From Streptomyces humidus (GTDB lineage: Bacteria > Actinomycetota > Actinomycetes > Streptomycetales > Streptomycetaceae), in assembly GCF_014649655.1 (NCBI RefSeq), contig NZ_BMTL01000004.1, positions 80,340-144,339 on the forward strand: 64,000 nucleotides of DNA, given 5' to 3'. Shown here in pieces: positions 11,407-41,521 of the stretch; position 1 is the stretch's first letter, and the number at the start of each line of letters is the position of its first letter. The notes below the pieces were generated by a model. It was not told the DNA's origin, ran no database searches, and saw only the letters and a list, made by a program, of their open reading frames with translations. The position numbers were made by a program, and so were the translations under genes.

Positions 11407-11422
11407 TGTTTCACGTGAAACA
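11407..11422. promoter_or_regulatory. parS site (ParB-binding palindrome)
   Basis: TGTTTCACGTGAAACA is a perfect 16-bp palindrome containing the Streptomyces parS consensus GTTTCACGTGAAAC (11408-11421). ParB loads on such sites around oriC to organise chromosome segregation. It lies between aspS and the divergent SpoIIE-type gene. Confidence 0.93.
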
Positions 11423-38048: not shown

Positions 38049-38747
38049 TCAGGCGGGCGGCAGCGGCGGCACGCCCGGCATCCCGGGAGCGCCGAGGCCG
38101 GCGTGTACCCGGTCCGGCCCCACCCGCACGATGGTGACCAGCCGGTCCGTGAGCTGCAGCACCCCGATCGCCGGGTCGTCGTAGGCCAGAACACGATGCC
38201 CGCGGACGACGCTGACCACCAGGTCGGCAGTCTCGCGCGGGCCGCGGCCCGCCTCGGCCTTGGTGACCGGACGCTCGACCAGGTCGAGTCCGTCGCCCTG
38301 CTGGATGAGGTCCTCCATGACCCGGCCCGCCGCCGGGCTGAGCACGGACAGCCCCAGCAACCGTCCGGCCGCCCCGGCGCTGGTGATGACCTCGTCGGCG
38401 CCCGACTGCTTGAGCAGCGGCGCGTTCTCCTCCTCGCGGACCGCTGCCACGATCTTCGCGCCCGGGTTGAGCTGACGCGCGGTGAGCGCGACCAGGACAG
38501 CCGTGTCGTCGCGCTGGGTCGCGATGATGATCCGGCCCGCCCGCTGCACCTCCGCACGCCGCAATACGTCGCTGCGCGTCGCGTCGCCGACCACGCCCTC
38601 GTAGCCTTCGGCCTTCGCCGTGTCGACCGCCTTGGCGCCCGGGTCGATCACCACGACCTGCTCCTTGCGCAGGCCCGCGGCACAGGCCGTCCGGATCGCG
38701 GACCGGCCCTTCGTGCCGAAGCCGACGACGACAGTGTGGTCGCGCAA
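38049..38747 (-). CDS. Stand-alone RCK (TrkA-N/TrkA-C) regulator
   Basis: 232 aa from TTG 38747 (GGAGG 5 nt upstream). It is a complete RCK unit with no pore: Rossmann motif VVVGFGTKGRSAIRTA, GDATRSDVLRRAEVQRAGRI, then LLKQSGADEVITSAGAAGRL and a TrkA-C-like end. It aligns throughout with the C-terminal half of the divergent channel gene (shared GDATRS, LTARQLN, ENxPLLKQSGAD, GLDLxERPxTxAEAG). RCK proteins bind nucleotide or cations and gate K+ channels as octameric rings; this one may mix with the channel's own RCK domains (inference). Confidence 0.9.
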   Translation of the reverse strand: MRDHTVVVGFGTKGRSAIRTACAAGLRKEQVVVIDPGAKAVDTAKAEGYEGVVGDATRSDVLRRAEVQRAGRIIIATQRDDTAVLVALTARQLNPGAKIVAAVREEENAPLLKQSGADEVITSAGAAGRLLGLSVLSPAAGRVMEDLIQQGDGLDLVERPVTKAEAGRGPRETADLVVSVVRGHRVLAYDDPAIGVLQLTDRLVTIVRVGPDRVHAGLGAPGMPGVPPLPPA

Positions 38748-38868
38748 GAGGACCTCCGGGGATCATGGGCATCTGAGGGTCTGGGACACATGTTGATTCA
38801 TGACGGGCGCGAACCCGCCGGGAACCATGGTGCCCACCGATCGGATCACCGTCAGCAGGGGGCACACG

Positions 38869-39984
38869 ATGAAGGACCACGAACGACAGCCCGGCCCGGC
38901 CAGGCTCTCACTGTTCAGGTCCCTCTGGTACCGCTCGCGCACCGAGGCCCGCGACGACGCCGAGGCGGGGCGCTCCATCGCGATGCCCGTGCGCGTCGGT
39001 GTGCCCCCGCTCCAGCAAGTGCTGCGGCGACTCGCCCTGGGGCTCCTGGTACTGGCCGTCACCACCCTGATCGTCTACGCCGACCATGACGGCTACAACG
39101 ACAACTCGGACGGCTCTGTCAGCCTGCTGGACGCGGCCTACTACGCGACCGTCACCCTCTCCACCACCGGTTACGGCGACATCACCCCGGTCAGTGACAC
39201 GGCCCGGCTCGTCAACATCCTGGTCATCACACCACTGCGCGTGCTGTTTCTGATCATCCTGGTCGGCACCACCCTGGAGGTGCTCACCGAGCGCACCCGC
39301 CAGCAGGTCCGCATCCACCGCTGGCGCGCCCGCACCAGCGGCCACGTCGTGGTCGTCGGATACGGCACCAAAGGCCGCCACGCGGTGCAGACCCTGATCG
39401 GGCAGGGCATCCCCAAGGACAACATCGTCGTCGTGGACACCGAACGCAAAGCCGCGCTCGTCGCCGGGGACGACGGCCTGGTGTCGGTGACCGGGGACGC
39501 CACCCGTTCGGAGACGCTCATCAAGGCCGAGGTACAGAGCGCCTCACGAGTGATCGTCTCGCCCCAACTCGACGAAACGGCCGCCCTGGTCACCCTCACA
39601 GCCCGTCAGCTGAACCGGCGCGCCACGATCGTGGTCGCCGCTCGGGAGGACGAGAACGTGCCGCTGCTCAAGCAGAGCGGCGCGGACACCGTGATCACCA
39701 GCTCCAGCTCCGCCGGACGACTGCTCGGCGTGTCGATGGTCAGCCCGACGGTGGCCAGGACGCTGGAGAGCCTGATGACCCTCGGCAGCGGCCTGGACCT
39801 CATCGAGCGGCCGATCACCGAGGCGGAAGCGGGCAAGGCGCCCCGCACCTGCGCGGATCTCGTCGTGGCTGTCGTCCGGGGCAAGGAACTGCTCGACTAC
39901 ACCGACCCCCGGCTCGCCCGTCTGCAGGAGGGGGACCGGGTGATCACGGTCAGCCGGGCCGCTTCGGTCCCCGAACAGGCATGA
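38869..39984 (+). CDS. Ion channel: K+ channel with C-terminal RCK domain
   Basis: 371 aa from ATG 38869 (AGGGGGC 6 nt upstream). One inner helix (ALGLLVLAVTTLIVYA), a pore helix and selectivity filter STTGYGD, then a second helix (ILVITPLRVLFLIILVG): the two-TM Kch/MthK layout. The remaining 220 residues are a TrkA-N Rossmann domain (VVVGYGTKGRHAVQTL) plus TrkA-C-like end. A tetrameric K+-selective channel is expected. The stop codon lies 5 bp before a parS cluster. Its RCK half is paralogous to the divergent RCK gene. Confidence 0.94.
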   Translation: MKDHERQPGPARLSLFRSLWYRSRTEARDDAEAGRSIAMPVRVGVPPLQQVLRRLALGLLVLAVTTLIVYADHDGYNDNSDGSVSLLDAAYYATVTLSTTGYGDITPVSDTARLVNILVITPLRVLFLIILVGTTLEVLTERTRQQVRIHRWRARTSGHVVVVGYGTKGRHAVQTLIGQGIPKDNIVVVDTERKAALVAGDDGLVSVTGDATRSETLIKAEVQSASRVIVSPQLDETAALVTLTARQLNRRATIVVAAREDENVPLLKQSGADTVITSSSSAGRLLGVSMVSPTVARTLESLMTLGSGLDLIERPITEAEAGKAPRTCADLVVAVVRGKELLDYTDPRLARLQEGDRVITVSRAASVPEQA

Positions 39985-39988
39985 CGCT

Positions 39989-40116
39989 GTTTCACGTGAA
40001 ACGGGGCGGGGTTTCATGTGAAACCGGAGCCCAGGTTTCACGTGGAATGAGAGCTGGGGTTTCACGTAGGAAGGGCAGAGGTTTCACGTGGAACGATGCG
40101 TCGTTTCACGTGAAAC
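39989..40116. promoter_or_regulatory. Cluster of six parS-like sites
   Basis: Sites of the GTTTCACGTGAAAC type: 39989-40002 (perfect), 40011-40024 (one mismatch), 40035-40048 (two), 40059-40072 (half-site, four), 40081-40094 (one), 40103-40116 (perfect). Spacing between starts is about 22-24 bp. The last site overlaps the moeA stop codon. Together with 11407-11422 they mark ParB loading near the origin. Confidence 0.93.
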
Positions 40117-41521
40117 ATGCACTGATCCCGGCCGTCGCCCACGGCAGGTCGAGCATCTCCGTCTCCTGACCCGCCCGTGCGCCGCCCGGCGGCACGACGG
40201 CGAGGGCGTCGGCCGCGGCGATGCCCCGCAGCATGGCCGGACCGTTGTAGTGCAGCGGCACGGCGCGGTCGCCCCGCAGGACCACCGGGATCAGCCGGGT
40301 GTCGTGCGGGTGCCCGTGCACCGTCTCCCGCAAGGGCAGCCTGTACGACTCGGGAGCACTGCGGGCGGCAAGAGTGCGCAGCAGCGGCTCAGCGAGCGTG
40401 AGCAGGCCGGAGACCGCCGCGAGCGGGTTGCCCGGCAGACCGACGAGGTGCTGGTCCTCCTTGACGCGCGCCAGCAGCATGGGGTGTCCGGGACGCACCT
40501 TGACGCCGTCGACGAGGAGTTCGGCATCGATCCGGCGCAGGGTGGGGTGCACATGGTCGACGGGCCCGGAGGCGGTCCCCCCGGTGGTGACGATCAGATC
40601 CGCGCGGGACGAGGTGATGGCCTTGTACAGGGCCTTCGCGTCGTCACGGAGCCTGCGTACGGCGATGACCTCGGCGCCCGAGGCACGCAGCCACGACGGC
40701 AGCATCGGGCCGAGCGCGTCCCGGATGAGGCCGTCGTGCGGGCGGCCCTCGGTGAGCAGTTCGTCGCCGAGAACCAGTACCTCGACCCGGGGCCGGGGCA
40801 CGGCGGTCACTGTGTCGTACCCGGCGGCGGCGGCGAGACCGAGGACGGCCGGGGTCACCACCGCTCCGGCGAGCAGCAGCTGATCGCCGGAGCGGCACTC
40901 CTGGCCGCGCGGACGGATGTCCTGGCCGTGCTGCATCTCACGGGTCGGATGCAGTCGGCCGTTGTCGTCGGTGCGACCGTGCTCGCTGCGCAGCACCGCG
41001 GTGGTGTCCGGGGGGATCCGGGCCCCGGTGGCGATCCGGACGGCTTCGCCGTCGGCGAGGGGAGCGGGCGCGGAGCTCCCGGCGAGTACGCCGCCCTCCC
41101 GAACGTGCCAGGGTCCGGGACCCGCGACCGCCCATCCGTCCATCGCCGAGGTGTCGAACGAGGGCAGGTCGGTGAGCGCGGTCAGCGGGGCGGCCAGGAC
41201 CAGACCGAGGGCGTCGCCGAGGCCGACGGAGACGGGAGTGGGACGGATGCCCGGCCGGACGGCGCGGGCGGCGATCGTCCTGGCCTCCGGCCAGGCGGTG
41301 GCTCGGTGGTGATGTTCGGCGGCGGCCCGGTGACCCGCCTCCGCGGCCCGCGCGGAAGCGTCCGCGGCCCGGGCGGACGGCGAGGCCTCGGGCTCGCGCT
41401 GTGCGGGGCGGAGGTCGCCGGCCGGGCGGGAGGAGCCGTTGCCGTGCTTCACGAGGGCGAGTGCCTCCTCGACGTCGAGGTCCTCGGCGTCGAGGCCCTG
41501 TCGGGCGCCGTGCGGGGTCAT
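40106..41521 (-). CDS. moeA: Molybdopterin molybdotransferase MoeA
   Basis: 471 aa; inserts molybdate into adenylated molybdopterin. Conserved blocks: DLPSFDTSAMDGWAVAGPG, AVRIATGARIPPDTTAVLR, VLVLGDELL, LIVTTGGTASGPVDHV (MoaB/MogA-like fold) and VGLPGNPLAAVSGLLTL. An N-terminal extension of about 85 residues, Ala/Arg/His-rich, precedes the family core. The C-terminal Cys-Phe-Thr-stop codons are themselves part of a perfect parS palindrome. ATG overlaps the stop of mobA by 4 bp (ATGA), so the two are coupled, with mobA first. Confidence 0.93.
   Translation of the reverse strand: MTPHGARQGLDAEDLDVEEALALVKHGNGSSRPAGDLRPAQREPEASPSARAADASARAAEAGHRAAAEHHHRATAWPEARTIAARAVRPGIRPTPVSVGLGDALGLVLAAPLTALTDLPSFDTSAMDGWAVAGPGPWHVREGGVLAGSSAPAPLADGEAVRIATGARIPPDTTAVLRSEHGRTDDNGRLHPTREMQHGQDIRPRGQECRSGDQLLLAGAVVTPAVLGLAAAAGYDTVTAVPRPRVEVLVLGDELLTEGRPHDGLIRDALGPMLPSWLRASGAEVIAVRRLRDDAKALYKAITSSRADLIVTTGGTASGPVDHVHPTLRRIDAELLVDGVKVRPGHPMLLARVKEDQHLVGLPGNPLAAVSGLLTLAEPLLRTLAARSAPESYRLPLRETVHGHPHDTRLIPVVLRGDRAVPLHYNGPAMLRGIAAADALAVVPPGGARAGQETEMLDLPWATAGISACFT

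Follow-up and report, generated by a model that had tools for sequence, protein, structure and literature searches.

The intergenic region between a K+ channel gene and the molybdopterin biosynthesis gene moeA of Streptomyces humidus contains a row of six parS-type units within 128 bp, an element of a known kind in an unusual layout. Its right-hand unit overlaps the moeA stop codon, and this site is an anchor, kept by most of the sampled Streptomyces, beside which the copy number of parS varies. The row probably acts as a loading platform for sliding ParB clamps, which would build a segregation complex left of the origin. The window, that is the whole stretch of 64,000 nucleotides that was analysed, belongs to contig C4 of a 9.71-Mb genome; coordinates given without a contig name refer to the window.

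The row is bordered by the K+ channel gene (38800..39984, plus strand; Pfam Ion_trans_2 and TrkA_N) and the convergent moeA (40106..41521, minus strand; Pfam MoeA_N, MoCF_biosynth and MoeA_C). Unit 1 (39989..40002, no strand assigned) is a perfect copy of the 14-bp parS consensus GTTTCACGTGAAAC and begins 4 nt past the stop codon of the channel gene, a place that is occupied in the same way in L118, L119, L120, L121, L136, L142 and L190. It is followed by unit 2 (40011..40024, no strand assigned; GTTTCATGTGAAAC, 1 mismatch), unit 3 (40035..40048, plus strand; GTTTCACGTGGAAT, 2 mismatches), unit 4 (40059..40072, plus strand; GTTTCACGTAGGAA, 4 mismatches) and unit 5 (40081..40094, plus strand; GTTTCACGTGGAAC, 1 mismatch). 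Unit 6 (40103..40116, no strand assigned), the conserved anchor, is again a perfect GTTTCACGTGAAAC and holds the moeA stop codon, a TGA on the minus strand at 40106-40108, so that the MoeA translation ends with CFT-stop inside this unit. From start to start, the units are 22, 24, 24, 22 and 22 bp apart. Two perfect and two one-mismatch units conform to the consensus, and units 3 and 4 stand at two and four mismatches. Unit 4 lies below the 3-mismatch limit of our search and was recognised solely by its intact left part, GTTTCACGT, and by its place in the row.

Reading of the sequence thus bears out the description from which the analysis started, namely six parS-like palindromes in 128 bp at a spacing of 22-24 bp, with two perfect sites flanking four imperfect ones (eight mismatches in all in the inner units, none in the outer ones) and with the TGA, Thr and Phe codons of moeA inside the right-hand perfect site. 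Six matches to GTTTCACGTGAAAC were counted in the window when up to 3 mismatches were allowed, five of them inside the array; 100 shuffles of the window gave 0.99 matches on average and five at most, and none of them reached six. One of the eight mismatches is located in a left half-site (two-sided p = 0.07), and we do not claim a preference for intact left halves. The sole other perfect site in the window (11408..11421, no strand assigned) is a single one and begins a 107-bp interval before a frame that encodes a SpoIIE phosphatase domain.

The distribution of such sites in the genome points to chromosome segregation. All 27 sites with at most one mismatch in the whole genome (17 perfect and 10 with one mismatch) were found on contig C4, between positions 91,747 and 267,561, and five of the six two-mismatch matches are single matches on other contigs. 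Contig C4 also carries dnaA (182570-184579, minus strand), parB (190779-191918), which was recognised by similarity to solved Spo0J/ParB structures (E = 3e-49), and a ParA-like frame at about 190 kb, identified by its KGGVGKTT motif and its position only. The earlier note had proposed that the sites would be clustered near the origin, and this is indeed the case; they are not scattered randomly over the chromosome, because all perfect and one-mismatch sites share the contig with dnaA, the ParA-like frame and ParB. The cognate ParB (by similarity) and ParA (by motif and position) are thus both encoded on the contig of the array. In an alignment with Caulobacter ParB that was read by eye, the S. 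humidus protein has kept the equivalents of R173, T179 and G201 of the parS-specific set, and position 184 is K, not A. The predicted assignment of the array units as parS-type sites close to the origin is supported by these comparisons. Perfect parS sites are also present inside the parB frame (C4 190998) and the ParA-like frame (C4 189874), and each of them is read as Val-Ser-Arg-Glu-Thr.

The search for oriC via DnaA-box clusters found no cluster, and dnaA serves here as a proxy for oriC. The array is located 62 kb from dnaA on its left side, where six of the 27 sites lie; four of these six belong to the array, which makes it the largest left-side group. A survey of 20 closed Streptomyces genomes gives a mean of 22.8 parS sites per genome (range 11-65) and places 79.86% of the sites to the right of oriC (PMC8743542); the distribution in S. 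humidus fits this survey.

Not all units need to be active. If only the two perfect outer sites acted and the four inner units were remnants of an expansion being lost, the concentration of all eight mismatches in the inner units would be accounted for, and degenerate sites with at least three mismatches are reported not to have recruited ParB in Corynebacterium glutamicum (PMC7083940). We consider such a restriction to the outer sites unlikely, since units 2 and 5 represent the two variants that form all 10 one-mismatch sites of the genome, all of them near the origin, and since the complement of unit 5, GTTTCACGTGGAAC, corresponds to the core of the optimal Bacillus subtilis site (PMC8299390). 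Eight of these 10 sites are GTTTCACGTGGAAC or its complement, and the unit 2 variant GTTTCATGTGAAAC has one further copy in the genome, also near the origin. The activity of unit 3 as a predicted parS is doubtful. Unit 4 is probably inactive as a ParB site, because it exceeds the number of mismatches at which the C. glutamicum sites failed. It retains an intact GTTTCAC half, the motif of the half-parS that is bound in Pseudomonas aeruginosa; however, according to the same study, B. subtilis showed no binding to half-sites and Caulobacter only a weak one (PMC10419367).

The spacing of about two helical turns had been taken to place ParB dimers on the same face of the DNA, and this part of the earlier note is not supported. 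With 10.5 bp per helical turn, the directions of the six sites are 0, 34, 137, 240, 274 and 309 degrees, i.e., all round the helix and not at whole-turn intervals. Among 107 distinct neighbouring pairs of sites (at most 100 bp apart), which include related species and loci chosen for their arrays and are therefore not independent, 27 pairs are 21-24 bp and 41 pairs 35-40 bp apart, with 20 bp as the smallest distance. The two favoured distance classes differ by about 14 bp and are mutually out of phase. A cooperative array of dimers on one helix face might be suggested by the 22-24 bp spacing, which is found again in sister species, and by a Rayleigh test with p ~0.01 at 10.5 bp for the pairs up to 80 bp apart, but the signal of the same test is stronger at 12 bp and, given the directions of the six sites and the two classes that do not share one phase, we regard this arrangement as improbable. 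A clamp that loads and slides would not require any phasing.

The anchor at the moeA stop codon is widespread in the genus. The 3' end of moeA was readable in 57 of 61 genus genomes, S. humidus included (no locus could be obtained for G001, G048 and G050, and the locus of G051 is without the end). A perfect parS lies over the stop codon in identical register in 41 of these 57 genomes and a site with 1 mismatch in one more, and in the other 15 there is no site with up to 2 mismatches at the moeA stop. Among 75 named loci, which were found through the S. humidus channel protein and lean to its relatives (a further one, L133, is without a moeA end), 67 have a perfect anchor and 2 an anchor with one mismatch. 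Another 16 genera of the family were covered by 21 genomes, whose loci were identified by protein guidance; no anchor was detected at the moeA stop in any of them, and none of these 21 MoeA proteins ends with FT. In this outgroup, a pair of two-mismatch sites occupies the gap in locus L220, and in L222 a perfect site is located about 1 kb away. The anchor most likely arose within Streptomyces. In L006 (G013), both convergent stop codons, those of the channel gene and of moeA, are inside parS sites 21 bp apart.

A perfect anchor in this register forces MoeA to end with FT-stop, as is the case for all 67 named perfect anchors, and an altered anchor site can lead to an altered protein end, as in G017 and L141, where MoeA ends with CST. 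Genomes without a perfect anchor mostly have other MoeA ends, with exceptions such as G040, which retains CFT-stop without any site at up to 2 mismatches. This coupling, together with G040, is what could be put forward for a site that is retained for the CFT end of MoeA and not for ParB; we hold this to be very improbable, since the conserved match extends 3 bases beyond the stop codon, the same codons are used throughout, the extra copies outside the gene are also perfect, and other endings are found in the 16 of 57 genus genomes without a perfect site (G040 with its CFT excepted) and in 21 of 21 outgroup genomes. A transcription terminator or insulator, which the convergent genes and the inverted repeat in every unit might suggest, is hardly credible either, since nothing resembling a terminator or promoter was matched between 39800 and 40300 and since the channel gene has the same direction as moeA in most relatives, where the parS site is still present.

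The alignment of the K+ channel with its relatives often begins only at about residue 20 or later, and the real start may be located further inside the frame. Channel proteins that are 92-93% identical are found in the named records of Streptomyces sp. LUP30, Streptomyces sp. IBSBF 2953, S. rishiriensis and S. hilarionis. On the minus strand at 38121-38804, in divergent orientation to the channel gene, a second TrkA-N protein is encoded, which shares about 52% identity with the C-terminal part of the channel; the match between the two contains one TGA. This paralogue adjoins the channel gene also in G013, G017 and G045.

Beside the anchor, the number of copies changes from relative to relative. 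Near the moeA stop, 0, 1, 2, 3 and 5 sites with at most one mismatch were counted in 5, 48, 7, 14 and 1 of the 75 named loci, respectively, and S. humidus has 4 such sites, or six if the degraded ones are included. Five perfect copies, spaced 23, 32, 23 and 23 bp, were found in Streptomyces sp. yr375 (L190), and three copies, 23-24 bp apart, in each of L118, L119 and L136. The sister array of S. rishiriensis consists of three perfect sites. Of the more distant genomes, G014 carries four sites that are all perfect, and of the four in G010 one has 1 and one has 2 mismatches. A protein tree built from 47 chosen loci requires a minimum of 15 copy-number changes, including 11 among the 37 loci with an inverted channel gene; this was a quick tree with 13 weak inner branches and long branches for L008 and L052.

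In relatives, the copies look as if they were maintained by selection, because 61 of 61 counted sites (at most one mismatch) in the 22 named loci with at least two sites are perfect. The comparison of L118 with L119 revealed differences at 0 of 42 site positions vs 5 of 19 spacer positions (P = 0.002), whereas the third positions of moeA predict 5.8 changes for the 42 site positions. This difference between sites and spacers and the frequency of the perfect anchor (41 of 57 genus genomes, 67 of 75 named loci) indicate a conservation beyond that of the surrounding DNA. A scan that tolerated up to 3 mismatches and reached 260 bp from the stop codon yielded no further decayed copies in the named loci; decayed extra copies are clear in S. 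humidus and weaker in two distant genomes, G010 and G040 (L025, 3 mismatches). Local duplication of the site followed by drift, the origin suggested earlier, is thus upheld in part: the comparison with relatives speaks for a local gain of copies, but the relatives' extra copies are perfect and not drifting, and the array retains no trace of tandem duplication, since its spacers are no more alike than shuffled ones (mean best match of 4.30 vs 4.27 in shuffles). In L121, the gap between the sites at -114 and -3 is a run of 8-bp GGGTGCAC-type repeats, which points to local slippage at the moeA-end locus.

The parS sites of Streptomyces chromosomes are well documented, with 24 sites reported for S. 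coelicolor, 16-17 for S. venezuelae and the above range of 11-65 for the 20 closed genomes (PMC4852455, PMC12511625, PMC8743542), as is a 22-copy cluster in Myxococcus xanthus (PMC3899335). The S. humidus array shares with the scattered Streptomyces sites the 14-bp palindrome and the proximity to oriC, and differs from them in its six copies within 128 bp, its stop-codon anchor and its position on the site-poor left side, most of the scattered sites being right of oriC; the available texts of the three Streptomyces studies describe no comparable six-copy, stop-anchored array. Like the array, the M. xanthus cluster consists of many chromosomal repeats packed together, which are bound by ParB in vitro; unlike the array, it is longer (22 repeats in 3 kb) and adjoins parAB, near parA, and no gene-end anchor is described in the accessible part of that report (PMC3899335). 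The parS of plasmid pSM19035 likewise consists of contiguous short repeats, at least four of which are required for full ParA activation, but these are 7-bp repeats recognised by an unrelated ribbon-helix-helix ParB, for which the text at hand shows no clamp loading (PMC9499535). A parS site within the moeA stop codon was not described in the parts of the parS literature that were compared, the site list of Jakimowicz (2002) for S. coelicolor and the supplements lying outside this comparison. Neither an anchor in a stop codon nor a turnover of copies next to it is shown in the literature searched, and both are, relative to it, new.

Similar arrays are present elsewhere in the genus. Three half-sites in a row were detected in 76 of 392 genus genomes, with a pattern that reads half-sites in one direction only and that includes at least one unrelated repeat among the matches listed (G236:C3); the table contains one control match (G131). 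Four of 30 examined array loci are at moeA, one of them that of S. humidus. Among the matches listed, 38 arrays in 23 genomes have dnaA on the same contig, a set that leaves out G215 C7, G289 C19, G363, G236:C3, one array of G161 close to the end of its record and the genomes whose dnaA location was not searched. The distances of these 38 arrays from dnaA bunch at +19 to +20 kb (ten arrays), +60 to +67 kb (seven), -59 to -69 kb (six) and -24 to -27 kb (three); the array of G390 (L115), at -65 kb, does not lie at moeA. This bunching, in which kinship is ignored, is a lead only. S. humidus itself has a second row of three parS-type sites (C4:248586-248669), with arrays at homologous genes in 10 of the 30 examined loci, and its two arrays are nearly equidistant from dnaA, since they lie about 62 kb to the left and about 65 kb to the right. 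As a tentative extension, it is conceivable that Streptomyces centromeres expand and contract from fixed anchors, a parS that has captured the stop codon of a gene being a protected seed for repeated gain and loss of copies beside it, and that such arrays return at fixed distances to the left and right of oriC, where they would tune the loading of ParB and SMC on each chromosome arm.

ParB is a CTP clamp that loads at parS and then slides off. The loading platform that we favour for the S. humidus row would start from sites that match the chromosomal parS consensus, in a genome in which all strong sites surround dnaA and parB. It would be built on the right-hand site, the anchor in the moeA stop codon that most sampled Streptomyces genomes have, and it would be extended by additional copies whose number, judged by comparison, varies among relatives, those of the named relatives being perfect beside changing spacers. 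ParB would bind to the two perfect and the two one-mismatch sites, close as a CTP clamp and slide away; since the clamps close and then slide off, several sites in a row would raise the local loading rate. The array might in this way be the main entry point of ParB and SMC on the site-poor left arm, with unit 4, and perhaps unit 3, presumably no longer functional in S. humidus.

Several reports on other systems are relevant for the platform. In vitro, ParB loading and condensation were reported to rise with the number of parS copies, 5 to 7 copies being needed to see condensation (PMC8299390). The ParB of S. venezuelae is described to bind 17 sites and to spread up to 2.5-3 kb from them (PMC12511625), and the loading and binding of SMC depends on ParB in this species (PMC8410768). 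Counterpoints to a loading platform are the degradation of two of the six units, the single site in 48 of 75 named loci and the lack of a site with up to 2 mismatches over the moeA stop in 15 of 57 genus genomes. The array is not required, because C. glutamicum is reported to grow near-normally with one parS (PMC7083940) and because so many of the named loci have a single site.

In most of the sampled members of Streptomyces, a centromere site determines how an unrelated protein ends. The relatives provide a natural copy-number series at one fixed position, which would allow a direct test of how the number of parS sites affects ParB loading, SMC entry and arm alignment. The finding thereby bears on the question of why Streptomyces have so many parS sites and why these are unevenly spread around oriC.
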